Both the position numbers and the translations under genes were made by a program. From Adineta ricciae (taxonomy: Eukaryota > Rotifera > Eurotatoria > Adinetida > Adinetidae), in assembly GCA_905250025.1 (NCBI GenBank), contig CAJNOJ010000128.1:219934-283933 (forward strand): a DNA stretch of 64,000 nt, read 5' to 3'. Positions 14,699 to 23,431 of this stretch are shown here, piece after piece. The notes below the pieces were generated by a model. That model did not search any database, was not told where the DNA came from, and worked only from the letters and a program-made list of their open reading frames with translations. The stretch's first letter is position 1. Every line of letters starts with the position of its first letter.

Positions 14699-17327
14699 TT
14701 ACTTTTTCTATAAGAAATTATTCAAAAGACTTGAAGAGAAGATTTTTGTCAACTTACCTGCATGTTTGACATCATATTACTGGCGAATGATGACAACTTT
14801 CCAGCTGCTTTTGAGACGCCATCTTTGAAATCTGCTGTCATTGTTGTTAGATCGACTCCCTGATAACCCGACGAACTCAGCTTTCGACTAGGATTACCGA
14901 AGTATTCTTCACTGGAAATACTCGTATTTCCTTGAAAGCGTGTGCTAACGTTGGACCGATCATTCTACGAAAAAATCTTTTCCTTGTTGGCAAAAACGAA
15001 CATTGTTTGTGAAAGCAAAACAAAATAAGTTTATTATTTAAATTTGGAAGTTAAAAGCTCGATCGGCGCGCTAGAAGTTTTGTTTAGATGAGCACATGCA
15101 CATTATTTTTGTTGAAGAAAAAACATGAATTAGCAAGAGTAGAAAATAAGAGAATGTCTGTTTTCCAGTTGTCGTTAGATGGATGCACATGCAGCAAAAT
15201 AAGATGAGTATGATATGTAGATTTTATCCATATGTAATGGTTACATACGTACATCCGAATCTCTGTTAAAGAATTGATCGCTTGATATGGCTTTAGCGTT
15301 AGAAAAACGTTTCTGAGTATCGCCTGCAGATGATGCATTGTAAGATGTTGATGATTTAGAAGATGATCTAGAGCAAAGTGAATTGAAACTATCTGGTTTC
15401 GTGAGCATGCTGTCAACTTACCCGTAAGCATCACTGTTAGCCGTCGAACTGTTATAATTTGACCCTGAAGATTTGTTACTTCCACTTGATCCGTAATCTT
15501 TGTTCGTTGATTTTTTATCAATAACTTCCCAATCAGCACTGAATGAATCCATAGGTTTCGCAGATGATTTTGGTTTGAAGAAATCATCATCTAATCTAGA
15601 TGGGAAGAGAACAATTATGGATAGAAATGTGCGAATTCAAATAGCAATTATGGTTAACTCAGAACGAAATTCGTCTTTTATCGTATGAAACACCTTTTCC
15701 CTACTGTCGAATGAATAGCAATATTAATTTTAGTACATGCATATCTCGTATTAGTAATTGAAGTACTTTGATGGATTCTCATCATCATCTCCCGATAATT
15801 GTCTATCATTACTAAATATCATCTGAAATATTAAATTGAACATTTGCGCTTGTTCGACTCACTTCGATCGACTGCTAAAGCCAGCTGGTTCAAAATCATC
15901 GAAAAAATCGCGATTTCTTGGTGCTAATGACACATTTCTGGTTGTTGTGACACCTTCTTGTTGAATCGTTTGCATATCTGTCATCGCACTATGGCTAACG
16001 CCACTACAACATCAATTTTTGAAAATATTCGTTAAATATTAATTTTCAACTACCTTCGAGCGCCAAAACCCATCCCAAGACGTTCCATTTGTTCGGCTTT
16101 CTTTGGATTTGATTGTTTTAGTTTCGCTTCTTCTATTTCACGTTGTTTATTCATATCTTGATATGCAAATTTCAGATTCGCCCTAATAATAATCGAATTG
16201 ACAACGATCTTTGTTCGAATGATATTCATCTTACATTTGTTTTTCCATTTGTTTTTCGTGTTCTTCACGATTTTTTATCTCTAGTTGAGCACGTTCTTCC
16301 CGATATTTTTCTTGTTCTTGAACGTTACGTTCAATTTCTTTGAAATCAGTCGAAACCTTTTGTGCGCCAAAGCCCTTCTGAAAACAAATACATTCTGGAA
16401 ATATAGATTTCATCATTTATTTATCGGTTCAAATCACCTTTTTAGTTGTTGGTGCACGACGTTGACCAATAGTGGACTTTTTGGGATCAAAAACCTTTGC
16501 CGATTCATCGTTATTAAATGCGTTAGGATCAACTGAAGGTCCTTCAGCTTGTTGTTCAGCTTAACAGAAGACAAGAACTGAACAATGAGAGATCAATGAA
16601 TAAATAACGTACTTTTATCAAGATTTTGATCATTTGAACGTAAAGATGTACTAACATTCTCCTCCCAACCTGATCTAGTCGATGTTTGAGAATGTTCATG
16701 GAAGAAATCTTCGTCTTTCCTTTCACTGGTTGATTGACGACGTTCATTTTTGTTTCCATCATCAAGAAAAAGCTTGAAAAAGATTTGTCAAATGAAATCA
16801 TTTGCGATATGTAACAACGAAATACTTTAGTTCCATATTGTTTCATCGCTTTTGTTGCTAATTGATGAAGTTTCTCACGGTAAAGTTGTGCTGCACGACT
16901 ATTGTATTTCTGTTGAATATCTTTTGTTTGACATCCATGTTGTTGAAAGAATGCTTCCTAAACGAAATATATGTTTCAATCAATTATCAACACTAGCATA
17001 TGGTTTAGTTACAGCATTTGCATTGCCACCGACTTGCATAGCCCTAAAGAATTGAATAATAAAGAATGGTGTTCAGTCCAATGAAACATACCGAAGTTGA
17101 AGCCAAGCCCAACTTGTATCAAGATTGATCGAACGAATGAAGGATAAATGCACACCAAGCCCACGATGTCTTGCTGAACAATCGATACAAAGAAATACAC
17201 CGTATGTGATGGATGCCCATGTCGGATTCTTTGCTTCGCAATCAAAACAAACTTTATTTGCTGAGATCGTTTTCAATCGTTTAAAGATAGCGTCAATATC
17301 TGATTTTGTTGGCTCTTCCATTTCCAT
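14699..17327 (-). CDS. ARFGAP2: ADP-ribosylation factor GTPase-activating protein, ARFGAP2/3 type
   Basis: GTPase-activating protein for Arf1, acting with coatomer on COPI vesicles at the Golgi. Starts [18 protein letters not shown] at 17327. The ArfGAP zinc finger is clear: CFDC, 16 residues, CIDC, followed by [16 protein letters not shown] carrying the arginine finger, and TSWAWLQLR. The middle is charged and polar, with a predicted helical ALKLKEK-type region ([11 protein letters not shown]). The C-terminus has the ArfGAP2/3-specific ISSEEYFG and then [20 protein letters not shown], before a very short last exon (stop at 14699-14701). About ten introns of about 50-65 nt. The exact exon set in 15240-16000 was not fully resolved. 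Confidence 0.9.
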
Positions 17328-18670
17328 AGGTTATTATCAGATGAGTTTATCTACAGTTGAGAGAAATCTTTTAACCTTGATCACCCTTAACTATGCGTAG
17401 TTTTTTGACAATAAAAGCAAATAAATCAGTTTGCTCACTACTGAGTAATGTGAGTAACAACGATCGATTGATACTATTCGCTCACTATTCTTTTAATCAA
17501 ATCTCTCGATGGATGTCGCTTATGTTTGCTCCGTATACGAGTCACAATGAGTAGTTGAATAATTTCATCGACCTTTTCGTTTCTGTTTAATCTCATGTAT
17601 TTGAGTGAGGTGAACACAAGTGATGAAACGATCCTATCGTCAGACCTAATGATTCCACCAGTTCATACAGAGTAAGATAGATACGCAATAACACAATTCG
17701 TTTTGACTACGAGAATTGGATAATGAACTTGATTCTATTGCAAGACCAATCCTTTCCACGAATCTACCCTAGTGCGAACCAGGATGGACAATCAGCCTAC
17801 AAATGAGATAGGATCATATCTCGAAGTATATTTTCTACGAATTTTCTCATCAAATTTTTCGTGAAAAGCAAGACACTTATTGTTCAATGCTTCAAATGGG
17901 TTGTTCTAAATAACTCTGGCAATCAGCAAAAAAGAAATTTGCCTTTGGCTACTTAATTCTCTATTTATTTTAATCAGTGAATATTAAGAGTGATTATCGA
18001 GTTCGCGAGATAGTTTTCGACGCAAAAATTCAATGATCATAACAAAATGTTCCACATTTATGAACCTGTCTTACATAAAATACAAATTATCTTTGTTTTG
18101 TACCATGAGATGTACTAGTCTGAACCTAGCATTGACTTTCTTAACTATTTCAATGAAAATAAGGAAAAGAAAGCATTTTCATCTTTCTTCTTTAGGATCT
18201 GAACTATTATAGAGATCAAACGCTTCATTGTTGTCGGAAACTGGCCTAGTTTTCCAAAACCTATTCAGTCAAAATGCCCGTGGTTCATATCGTAAATATG
18301 GTATGTTTCACTTACTGAATAAATGAACATCGTACTGCGACATCTAGTTGACCATGTTATTTGTTATCAAATTACCCTGTTCGGAACAAGTACAGAACAA
18401 ACGTAAACGAAAGGAAGTAAGGAAAAAGAAACGTTCTCTTCTCAGAGCTGAACAACGTCAACAATCTGTGGCTGGGTGAGACACACATCTCTGAGTCATG
18501 TTCTTTACTGATTGCGCAATTTTCTGATAAGTTGCTTTTGCATCTGACTCATGTTGTACGTTATATAAACTGTAGTCTTTTGGCATTTTTTCACACTTTC
18601 GACTAAAAATAGAAGGGAATTTGACACATTTTCGTATCTTTCACTTTTATCTTAATAAAACTCGAAAATA
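17328..18670. promoter_or_regulatory. Divergent intergenic region between ARFGAP2/3 and NUP98
   Basis: 1.3 kb spacer. A 43-codon basic open frame starting near 18353 (KRKRKEVRKKKRSLLRAEQR) is the only coding-like hint; it has no family match and is not called. The NUP98 promoter presumably lies at the right end. Confidence 0.45.
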
Positions 18671-21453
18671 ATGTTCTCATTTCATCCGACAACCACAGCT
18701 GCTACTACATCCGCTTCAATGTTTACATTTTCTCGTCCGATTACATCACAAGCATCAAATATACCACTGTTTCAATTTGGTGGTAGTGGCGCACAGGGTG
18801 GTGCGACTGTCTCACCATTTGCCCCTCTTCCAGCAACGAATCAACCTGCTAACAACGCAAATTCAAGTATGGAAAACGTAGAGGATCTCATTGCTTAACT
18901 ATAAGATTTCTTTTCTATTTCAGATGCTACTGGCTTGTTCCAGTTCGTAAGCGGTCAATGCGCACCGGCAGCACAAGTACCAAATTATTTTTTCACAAAT
19001 CAAACAGGCACAACAATTAAATTCATTCCAGTAGCTTCACAAGGTAAACTTCATACCATACATTTTTTAAATAATCCATTTCGATTTTTTAGAGACTGAA
19101 TATGTGCGTAAAACTAAGAAAATTGTAACTTCGGATGTAAAATATCAGTGCATATGTAATATAAAAGAGTATTCGAGTAAATCGATGGATGAGCTTCGAT
19201 TAGAAGATTATCAATCAAATCGAAAGCTCCCCTCAGGTAATGCCTTGTTTTTCCCGTCTGAAAAATCATCCATTAATACTAAAGTCTCTTATTCTTTTAG
19301 CGTCGACCTCGGTTGCCTCAAATACATTGATCTTCAATGTCAATCCTCCAATTACAACCGCAGCGAAACCATTTAGTACTGCGACTACGACCAATAATAT
19401 TTTCAATCCATCGGTGTCAACTGTAGCGAACCCTTTCAGTGTTGCGACTCCGACCAGTAATATTTTCAATCCATCGGTGTCAACTGTAGCGAACCCTTTC
19501 AGTACTGCGACTACGACCAGTAATATTTTCAATCCATCGGTGTCAACTGCAGCGAGCCCTTTCAGTACTGCGACTACGACCAGTAATATTTTCAATCCAT
19601 CGGTGTCAACTGTAGCGAACCCTTTCAGTGTTGCGACTACGACCAGTAATATTTTCAATCCATCGGTGTCAACTGTAGCGAACCCTTTCAGTACTGCGAC
19701 TACGACCAGTAATATTTTCAATCCATCGGTGTCAACTGCAGCGAGCCCTTTCAGTACTGCGACTACGACCAGTAATATTTTCAATCCATCGGTGTCAACT
19801 GTAGCGAACCCTTTCAGAACTGCGACTACGACCAGTAATATTTTCAATCCAGCAATGTCAACTACACCAATAACGACATTTCCGTGGTTAAAAAATGCTA
19901 GTTTAACACCAACTGCTCCAAATCTTAACCCATTCGGCATACAACCCGTAACTACAGGAGCTCCAATGGCAACGGCATCATCAACGCATCCATTTACTAC
20001 TACGCCAGCTACAACATCCAGTGTTTTCACAGTTCCGTCAATATTTCCTGGTTTTCGTACACCTACCATATCGACGGTCAGTACGATCCCTTCAACTAAT
20101 ATCTCTCAGTCGTATACTGCACCGTTTCAATTCTCGCAAAGTTCATCGATTCTTAATCAACCATCAGTAATTCAATCAATATCTGTAACACAAACTCCGG
20201 CAATTGTGCCATCATCAATATCTTCAACGGCGGCATCAGAAACAGCTGCAATGAGTCAGCAACAGTTTCTTACCAAACTACTTCTCGATCCATACGGTAA
20301 TCGTGGACGAAAAGAGTTTATCAATGCGGAATCAACCTCCTCGCCTAAGACATCCATTGTTGATTCAACTTTACATACAACGGTGTCGGCATCGACACCG
20401 ATACCAGTTGTTCTTCCGGTCCATTCGAATTTCCAAAGAACGACTGCTCCACATTCATCAATTAACTTAGATTTCAAACTAAAACCTACTTCGTCAGTTT
20501 CAACATCACATGAAGATACGCAGTCACTCAATCAACAATCTAAATCGACGACAGAACCAAGTAAAAGTACACTGTCGGGGGGTTTTACTGACGAAGAAGA
20601 GGTTGTTTTACTTACTCGTACGAAACTATCCAAATTACATTTGTTAAATAGTACAATGAATCAGCCAAATACACTTCATTCACTGTATCCCCGACGAAGT
20701 TTAGCTGAATTGGAATCATTAACAAAATTATCGCGACTATCACCTCCAATTTCGACACCTTCCGAACAGACTGTTTTGCCAAAATCAGTCTCTCCAAACT
20801 TGGAACCTCAACCGAATATTGACCTGTCATCGTTCCGTTTACCAATCTTAACTCGTTTGAATTATTATATGAAACCGGATCTAGCCGAATTAGAAACACT
20901 ATTTAATGATAAAGGTCAATGTTTGGTCAAACAATTCACTGTTGGAAACGACAAGTATGGTTCAGTGACATTTTATGGACAAATTAACGTTGCTGGACTT
21001 AATCTTGATGAAATAAGTAAGTTAATCTTTGCGAAAAACAATTTTACACCAACATATATCTTCTATTCATTCTCATTCTAGTTCAAATCAATCACCAAGA
21101 AGTTATTGTTTATCCCGATGATATAAGAAAACCAGCCGTCGGTGAAGAATTGAATCGTTCTGCTCGTATTACATTATTTGACGTCTATCCAATCGATCGA
21201 GCAACACGATCAAAAATAAGCGATATTGAACGAATCAGAGCGATGAATTACAGTGATCATTTACGTGAAACCACCGGAAAGTTCGATGGAGAATTCATCA
21301 ACTACGATCCCATCGATGGATCGTGGACATTCATGGTATGAAAACTTCAATATTGCAGTGAAAGTTAATCTATACATGTTCTTCATTTCTTTATAGGTAA
21401 AACATTTTACTCGTTACGGTATCGATGAGAACGAAAAGTATACGAACCTCTAA
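18671..21453 (+). CDS. NUP98: Nucleoporin NUP98, FG-poor with NIFN repeats, no Nup96 half
   Basis: Peripheral nucleoporin; Nup98 normally forms the permeability barrier and binds the mRNA-export factor Rae1. Six exons (18671-18866, 18924-19043, 19093-19236, 19301-21016, 21082-21335, 21397-21453) give 828 residues. The Rae1-binding GLEBS motif is well kept: TTIKF, then KYQCICNIKEYSSKSMDEL and RLEDYQSNRK. The C-terminal autoproteolytic domain is also clear (RLPILTRLNYYMKPDLAEL, GSVTFYGQINV, VGEELNRSARITLFDVYPID, FINYDPIDGSWTF, VKHFTRYG). The middle repeat region lacks GLFG: it has a tandem array with one NPF/SPF/KPF-type and one NIFN motif per 21-residue unit, plus a Ser/Thr/Pro-rich stretch. 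Only two FG dipeptides are obvious (QFGG, PFGIQ). The cleavage-site Ser of HFS is Thr. The frame ends 14 residues after that point (counting the Thr), so Nup96 is not fused here. Confidence 0.93.
19360..19863 (+). repeat. 63-bp coding tandem repeat (8 copies) in NUP98
   Basis: Eight head-to-tail 63-bp units, starting at 19360, 19423, 19486, 19549, 19612, 19675, 19738 and 19801. Each encodes 21 residues with an NPF/SPF/KPF motif and NIFN. Units 2-4 and 5-7 form a 189-bp higher-order duplication that I find identical apart from one base (CCGACC versus ACGACC). The first and last units are more diverged, as expected for an array expanding from its middle. Confidence 0.95.
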
Positions 21454-23431
21454 TTCTTTTAAGTTAGAAGCCGATAGGACGAATGACATCTCGTACTTAA
21501 AATATTGCTTTACTTTTTCTTGAATAAATTTCTTTGCAAAGACACGGTTTTTCAGAATTAGACAAGAGAGTAGTATACCCTGTAGAAGATTAGCTGTGAG
21601 TAGATCATACGTATAGATGATTTCAGAAGTAGATTTCATTTATCAGTTTCGAGTCAATCGCTTCTCTTTTTATTGACTAATCCATAGTCATATATCGTTC
21701 GAATCGTTGTTACTGAGCTTAGTGACAGATTAATTAATCATATTTATTCAGCAATAGAACTATTTTTAATTGTCATTGAAAACGACATGTCTATTGTATT
21801 GTAGAATATCAATGTGTAAATGAGGACAGAAAATGTGATATAAATCGAATGATTTGAACAAAAATGGTAAGTAATTATTTGTCATATTCAATCTATTTTA
21901 GCAACGACTTGCAAATCCCAAGTGATTATTTGGGTGTTAGAACTTCATTTACATATTTATTGACGACTGATCAAATAACAATAATACGTCAGATGTTTTT
22001 GTCGATGAACTTCAACAGATAAAGTTGATGTTAACCGATTCTTTAATCTGTTCGATTGCAATTCGAATCGACGAATGAACAATATCAGGTAAGTGAATTC
22101 ATCTCACGATTAACTGAGTTCACTGATCCGTAAGTAATTTTCTGACTTGTACAACATATGTTTCTCTATTACCAATTCTGTTTCATTAACTATTTCTTAT
22201 AGATAATAGCTCGGAGATATTTTCATTGTCGAATTCATTTCGAACAACCTCATTTGAGTTGTTGTTTTTGTTGTCCGATATGATGGAAATGATTGCTGGA
22301 CAATCACGGAGATGTTTATGATAGGAATCAGTTTTTCATACTGAATCGTTCATGTTAATGAACTCGGTACTTATGCCATTGGCCATAGCAGAAAAAGTTT
22401 CGTAATTTAGTTCCTTCAATCTTTTGTTTCATCGAATCAATTCATTGTCAAGTGTCTCTTTACGTTTTTTGCAAGAAATCAATGCCACATTGTTTCTATG
22501 GCGTATGCGAAAACAGATTTTTCATCATCGATTCTTTTTCAGTCAGTGAACGCGGTGAAAAGTTCATGTTCGTAAGTACAAACTCTCAGCTTCTACAATG
22601 TTCGATGTTGTCTTCTGTATGATATTAATAAATGACTCGATTTGAAATGTTCATCAAAAACAATCTATGCTCTTCTCTTTATTCCACTCGATGACTGAAA
22701 GAGATCTTTGTCTGAAAAAATTCTAATTAAGAACAAAGGAAAAAAGAAGTCAACATATGTCGTTCTTTCTCGTGCTATTCATAAGTACGGATTGACTGGT
22801 GATGGTCGATGATATTGATTCTTAACTGACATGTTCGTACTGATTGTCAGTTGATGATTTCTTTGTTCAAATTCTGATGACTTGTCATTGACAAATAATC
22901 CATGGACAGGCGACCAACCTTCTCATCGTGGCGCGAAGAAAGGCAAAAAAAAACTGTCATTACTTTAGTTTTTTTCCTCTCTTCTCTTCTTCCCTATTGA
23001 TCTTAAAGGAACTATCGAAGATTGCTATTAATTCTCTTCCTTTATCGAAGAGAGAAAAATGCATTAGTCGATCCCGTTCTGCTTTTTCTTTCCTTTTCTG
23101 TTTCTCTGACTCCCGACTATCTACTTTTAGATAATGATAGAAGAAGCCATACTATGATTCCAATCGACAAACGAGTGTGCACACTAGTACAACTAATAGA
23201 ATACATAACGATAGAAGAGCGCCAATGATGACGATGATGATTGATCGATATTATAGAGAAGCAATGTTGTTTTTTGCTTCTGCTACTACTAGTTTGCGTC
23301 ATTGACCTGCATGTGCGACGACAGATCTATGTATCGCCATTAGCCAAACTCGAATTCATTCGAGATGAACTAAGTAAGTCGAAGATTGATGAAATGCATG
23401 GTTTGCTCATGAATGTTTTCTTAGAAATCGA
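21454..23431. other. Intergenic region between NUP98 and RAPGEF1
   Basis: About 2 kb, AT-rich. I looked for a separate Nup96 frame and found none. Short open frames near 22928-23380 could include a 5' exon or 5'UTR of RAPGEF1, but nothing shows this. Confidence 0.45.

Follow-up and report, generated by a model that had tools for sequence, protein, structure and literature searches.

Gene anatomy of the Nup98 paralog

The window analysed here is a stretch of 64,000 nucleotides from the bdelloid rotifer Adineta ricciae (C128:219934-283933, in a genome of 130.5 Mb and 1033 contigs). Its GC content is 34-38% in 4-kb steps, and the available part of PMC5916493 gives 35.6% for the species. The window contains a gene for an FG-depleted Nup98 paralog, hereafter C128, whose ATG is at 18671 and whose stop codon ends at 21453. 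The spliced model is open throughout, and all five introns are GT-AG and 49-65 bp long. The features of the locus are as follows.

15911..17252, minus strand: neighbouring gene, ArfGAP-like by ORF reading, syntenic with the C210 locus
18671..21453, plus strand: FG-depleted Nup98 paralog, 6 exons, 828 aa, without Nup96
18671-18866, 18924-19043, 19093-19236, 19301-21016, 21082-21335, 21397-21453, plus strand: the six exons
18671..18866, plus strand: exon 1, disordered N-terminus, starting MF like several relatives
19007..19226, plus strand: GLEBS (Gle2/Rae1-binding motif), aa 94-150, exons 2-3, split by the intron 19044-19092
19363..19866, plus strand: NIFN array of eight 63-bp/21-aa units, from Tandem Repeats Finder (TRF) and in-frame reading
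19867..20844, plus strand: remaining disordered FG-poor region and conserved linker (QQFLTKLLLDPY, FKLKP, SLYP)
20845..21408, plus strand: autoproteolytic domain (APD), aa 669-814, exons 4-6, to the predicted scissile KHF/T
21409..21453, plus strand: 14-aa tail TRYGIDENEKYTNL and stop; the normal copy runs on into Nup96 here

An A. ricciae protein deposited from another assembly, P0001, equals the C128 translation minus 63 aa within the array, and database matches were obtained with it. The APD (PF04096, E=3.2e-41) and the GLEBS motif (PF21240, E=3.8e-8) were both matched over the Pfam cut-offs. In a PDB sequence search, P0001 matched Nup98 chains of known structure: 2q5x for the APD (E=1.2e-39), and 7vpg (4.9e-11) and 3mmy (2.3e-10) over the GLEBS stretch. 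The conservation of these two domains, which an earlier note had read from the letters, is thus confirmed. The C128 APD contains the sequence KHF/TRYG, whose H-F-T-R-Y-G is shared without change by all 13 aligned proteins, and the frame stops 14 codons past HF. Nup96 (PF12110) was not found at C128, the sole matching locus in the genome being C210.

The 674 aa before the APD contain 2 FG, 0 GLFG, 8 NIFN and six NPF. One FG, at aa 36, lies upstream of GLEBS and the other, at aa 365, is part of an NPFG, leaving a single FG between GLEBS and the APD, in agreement with the earlier description of this stretch as almost free of FG. The possibility, also raised there, that GLFG repeats lie in an unannotated exon was ruled out: six-frame ORFs across 17300-23300 hold at most 2 FG each, and the introns are just 49-65 bp long.

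Nup98 copies in A. ricciae and other bdelloids

As an alternative, the earlier note had suggested that the gene is a specialised paralog and that a normal copy exists beside it, and a search of the genome for other Nup98 genes bore this out. PF04096 was matched at at least six loci (C1, C6, C41, C65, C128 and C210), which rules out C128 as the animal's only Nup98. Nup96 was matched at at least one locus, and among the six APD loci only at C210. C210 is a normal Nup98-Nup96 gene, FG-rich, with GLEBS, an APD and 37 FG in a disordered domain of 520 aa, and a reading of C128 as the Nup98 of this animal is not supported. Nor is a settled replacement of a GLFG domain supported; even the normal deposited A. 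ricciae protein P0031, of the C210 type, has 0 GLFG, with 9 SIFG and other xFG motifs.

C41 carries the homologous copy of C128, with DNA 89-93% alike across three long blocks; the deposited protein P0002 is identical to it, and both copies have full open frames with GT-AG introns. Synonymous divergence between them (dS 0.145) resembles the mean given for A. ricciae homologs (0.135-0.14) and is far from that for ohnologs (1.27) in the available part of PMC5916493. C6 and C65 form a second homologous pair (DNA 94-95%), FG-bearing and without Nup96. C1 and C210 (whose contig ends at 184274) were each found once; a second copy of each may have been lost or collapsed, or may be missing from the assembly. 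The neighbouring gene at 15911..17252 has a 71% DNA match to positions 3-1340 of L013, the C210 locus; its ORF peptides matched L013 in 3 of 3 cases, and none matched L012 (C1) or L016 (C6). Because the neighbour of C128 aligns with that of C210, C128/C41 and C210 are taken as ohnologs.

We note that the sister genes at L016 (C6), L017 (C65) and L012 (C1, reverse strand) stop directly after the scissile HF (VEHF stop), as do the deposited proteins P0035, P0044, P0046, P0047, P0049, P0052, P0054 and P0057. With a stop at this point, the proteins of C6, C65 and C1 would be made with the mature C-terminus already in place and need no self-cleavage. In five deposited C6- or C1-type models (P0034, P0051, P0056, P0058 and P0059) the last, HF-stop exon is skipped and the protein continues into a next-door protein (PF01603, from precomputed Pfam matches) from a common splice point, TWTF then K/Q; either an annotation error made several times over or a genuine isoform would account for this read-through.

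The disordered domains of C128 and C210 were compared without GLEBS. That of C128 is 422 aa long (272 aa in C41). Its Phe density is 8.7 per 100 aa versus 11.2 in C210, one Phe per 11.4 residues, and its charged residues make up 1.7% versus 0.4% (D/E plus K/R, 1 + 6 in 422 aa and 0 + 2 in 520 aa, respectively). The two domains also differ in Gly (2.4% versus 10.0%), in Phe followed by Gly (2 of 37 versus 37 of 58) and in Val plus Ile (11.6% versus 4.4%). According to the available text of PMC9918544, a typical Nup98 FG domain has about one FG per 12 residues with GLFG prevalent, is about 500-700 residues long, is strongly depleted in charge, above all negative charge, and has Val and Ile selected against. 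C128 shares the charge depletion but differs in FG and GLFG frequency, in length and in Val plus Ile content.

In an APD tree of 60 rows, C128 falls in a 19-row clade of lone Nup98 proteins (support 100/98) from A. ricciae, A. vaga, A. steineri and five Rotaria names; the clade nests inside the bdelloid Nup98-96 group. The 60 rows include 54 different sequences, and 7 of 67 were omitted, namely 6 short APD matches and P0033, which had no match. A 48-row tree, from which most of the distant rows were left out, recovered the same 19 rows (75/97). In the 60-row tree, A. ricciae C210 falls outside the other normal copies and the C128 family together (95/90), which is a poor fit to a simple ohnolog history; a single clade of the 7 normal copies was not rejected (p-AU 0.319). 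Among the matches listed, no member of the lone-Nup98 family came from Didymodactylos or another bdelloid genus, and in the open-licence literature we found no paper on Nup98 in bdelloids or on Nup98 paralogs in rotifers.

Within the lone-Nup98 family, the number of FG before the APD ranges from 0 (A. vaga P0003, whose model begins at the GLEBS edge, so that its N-terminal count is incomplete) to 20 (R. sordida P0009), with 2-5 in A. ricciae, A. steineri, R. socialis and R. magnacalcarata. FG loss thus went to different degrees in different branches. GLEBS is retained in A. ricciae and A. vaga and was not found in any of the 8 aligned A. steineri and Rotaria rows, so that Rae1 binding would not be a family-wide role. 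Two Rotaria members of the C128 family, P0009 and P0014, are without GLEBS and carry PFG in short tandem repeats at a spacing of mostly 8-10 aa.

The NIFN array and selective constraint

The repeat search with TRF reported a single array of 63-bp period at 19355-19863, with 8.1 copies, 93% matches and a score of 885. Read in frame, it forms eight tandem units of 21 aa, each with one [NSK]PF and one NIFN, just as the earlier note had described. Units 2-4 and 5-7 are a 189-bp duplicate with one base different. C41 has a single unit, ASPFSIAATTGTIFNPVVSTA, which reads TIFN, and A. vaga likewise has a single unit, ANPFNIPTTSNNIFNRTV, whereas P0001 has five, which may be true variation or an assembly collapse. 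A query with the array against the whole A. ricciae genome gave 5 matches at E<=1, all of them in C128 or at the lone C41 unit, although weakly similar repeats could escape such a search, and a genome-wide NIFN system of the kind that Tetrahymena has in Nup98 and Nup214 was rejected on this result. An array of its own, built from 23-aa NPFN...FN units in tandem, is present in A. steineri, with four units in register in P0005, so FN arrays recur. The three deposited A. steineri proteins P0004, P0005 and P0006 differ in unit number.

The NIFN array is therefore young and local. With a single unit in both C41 and A. vaga, the unit itself is probably older than the split of A. ricciae from A. vaga, whereas the expansion to eight is recent and seen in one of two homologous copies.

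We further compared C128 with C41 region by region by dN/dS (NG86). The whole gene gave 0.47. The APD is constrained (0.09, 160 codons, Fisher 1.3e-7), followed by GLEBS (0.34, 64 codons, p=0.08, weak), the linker at 473-668 (0.37, p=0.003) and the N-terminus (0.60, p=0.23), and the disordered region at 154-472 gave 1.09 (167 aligned codons, p=0.88). In the control pair C6/C65, which is of like age (dS 0.137), the corresponding values were 0.17 for the FG domain, 0.12 for GLEBS, 0.06 for the linker and 0.02 for the APD. The two pairs differ in their disordered domains (p=4.2e-6) and do not differ in their APDs (p=0.38). With the APD constrained and the disordered domain at 1.09 versus 0.17, it is the anchor for which the gene is maintained, and the repeat domain has escaped the constraint that an FG-bearing sister shows. 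These values, together with unit numbers of 8, 5, 1 and 1 in C128, P0001, C41 and A. vaga, speak against the view that NIFN is a settled replacement for GLFG.

One residue stands out from this relaxed background. Of the 25 Phe sites compared between C128 and C41, 22 are conserved, where neutral simulation expects a fraction of 0.67-0.71 (P=0.008, 0.018, 0.009 and 0.023 in four settings, for one of ten letters and uncorrected). None of the other nine letters exceeded expectation in the C128/C41 simulation, and Ala fell below it. When the nine other letters were pooled, all 8 family pairs showed Phe to be the better conserved (p<0.05 in 6 pairs; the pairs overlap), as did 4 of 4 control pairs from other Nup98 families. 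A fair reading of these comparisons is that selection for Phe is weak, with none detectable for Gly or the NIFN context. The kept Phe sites, the Phe density and the low charge tell against pure drift.

Interpretation and relation to known systems

Taken together, C128 looks like an evolving spare part and not the main Nup98 of A. ricciae: its docking domains are kept, its FG are mostly lost, and its array is young and present in one homologous copy. We favour, at a probability of about 0.6, the reading that C128 encodes an FG-depleted Nup98 which is anchored and binds Rae1, and that neutral drift largely accounts for its NIFN array. The gene anatomy, the paralogy, the youth of the array and the contrast in constraint are observed; the history and function proposed around them are conditional. 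The C128 lineage would be an ohnolog of the bdelloid Nup98-Nup96 gene that lost Nup96, retained GLEBS and the APD, and whose FG domain may have decayed through changes of FG to FN, FS or FT. By analogy with known Nup98 biology, the precursor would cleave itself after KHF, the APD would dock on the pore scaffold at the place of normal Nup98, and GLEBS would hold Rae1/Gle2. Acting in this way, the protein would supply additional anchored sites for Rae1 but little FG cohesion; its tail would be flexible and weakly cohesive and may dilute cohesion. The array would be a young minisatellite, amplified in one homologous copy from one pre-existing NPF...IFN unit, and its exact motif and copy number would be largely neutral, under a weak need for a flexible, low-charge, Phe-bearing chain.

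A different reading makes the motif itself the active element: Phe motifs without Gly would form or join a selective phase and shift receptor preference, with NIFN convergent on the Tetrahymena MicNup98 repeats. Phe is indeed retained in C128 while Gly is lost and charge is still low, and NPF...FN units are common to Adineta species and amplified in A. ricciae and A. steineri. In the available text of PMC9918544, changing GLFG to GLFS in vitro leaves a phase that is still selective, with receptor preference modestly shifted, which makes a working phase of this type possible, and Tetrahymena NIFN repeats influence nucleus-specific import according to the available part of PMC5450191. However, the disordered domain has a dN/dS of 1.09, homologous copies differ by 8 versus 1 units with TIFN in C41, the domain of 422 aa (272 in C41) is below the typical 500-700 aa, Val plus Ile stand at 11.6% versus 4.4% in C210 even though PMC9918544, as far as its text is available, has them selected against, and NIFN is absent from the main text of that paper. 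We regard this reading as possible but unlikely. Its fuller version, in which Adineta evolved a near-FG-free Nup98 by keeping Phe spacing and charge depletion, shedding Gly (FG to FN or FS), amplifying NPF...FN separately and forming or tuning a selective phase with altered receptor preference as an animal parallel to MicNup98, is slightly more doubtful still.

The other explanations seem to us much less probable. Misassembly of the eight-unit length is improbable. The five units of the other A. ricciae assembly are short by exactly 63 aa, one 189-bp higher-order repeat, as a misassembly could give, but the units are distinguished by point changes. At least five NIFN units are present in both assemblies, so that the array is real and its length alone is unsure. 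A decaying pseudogene without a product is very improbable, and we rejected it: the relaxed disordered domain and the unequal lengths of the homologous copies would suit decay, yet both C128 and C41 are open-framed with GT-AG introns, their APD gives a dN/dS of 0.09 (Fisher 1.3e-7), and the family persists in Adineta and Rotaria. NPF motifs can bind EH-domain proteins, and tandem NPF as the active part, in a role away from the pore, would be compatible with the six NPF upstream of the APD in C128. In the C41 protein (P0002), however, NPF does not occur ahead of the APD, and the first position of the unit varies among N, S and K; we consider this reading the least credible of all.

Across homologous copies and orthologs the family forms a natural series, with 8, 5, 4, 1 or no NPF...FN units and 0-20 FG before the APD, in which one nucleoporin retains its anchor domain while the FG code decays. 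GLFS can replace GLFG in vitro (PMC9918544, available text), and in the rotifer family Phe is kept and Gly lost; the family could thus serve as material for testing the need for Gly in FG in vivo. It also carries a caution: when a striking repeat is seen in a single assembled copy, it may be a minisatellite that is young and nearly neutral.

The nearest precedent by motif is Tetrahymena, which, in the available parts of PMC5450191 and PMC4432229, has GLFG in two of its four Nup98 paralogs and NIFN in the other two. The earlier note had cited MicNup98 as its NIFN precedent, which PMC5450191 supports to the extent that its text is available. T. thermophila MicNup98A/B resemble C128 in that NIFN-type repeats stand where FG would be expected, while other paralogs of that organism bear FG. 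The Mic paralogs are, however, nucleus-specific and have been tested, whereas C128 resembles them in motif and belongs to another lineage. The C128 array is also unfixed, with 8 units in C128, 5 in P0001 and 1, a TIFN, in C41. Rotifers are not known to have nuclear dimorphism. As the earlier note proposed, an animal Nup98 does carry NIFN units: C128 nests among bdelloid Nup98s in the 60-row tree, which contained no ciliate row. On this placement a ciliate or foreign origin was rejected, and NIFN would have arisen separately from that of Tetrahymena. The engineered phases in which GLFG was changed to GLFS (PMC9918544, available text) share Gly-less Phe motifs and low charge with C128; they are designed, based on GLFG52x12 and not natural, and NIFN does not occur in that text.

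The canonical metazoan and bdelloid Nup98-Nup96 gene, represented by C210, has homologous GLEBS, linker and APD and a common neighbouring gene; C128 differs in the absence of Nup96, in 2 FG versus 37 and in Gly of 2.4% versus 10.0%. Yeast Nup100, Nup116 and Nup145N offer a further likeness, with several Nup98 paralogs of which only one is a fusion and only one has GLEBS (PMC4283134, available part). Nup100 and Nup116 are FG-rich in the same source (43 and 47, which we take as FG counts), whereas C128 is FG-depleted.
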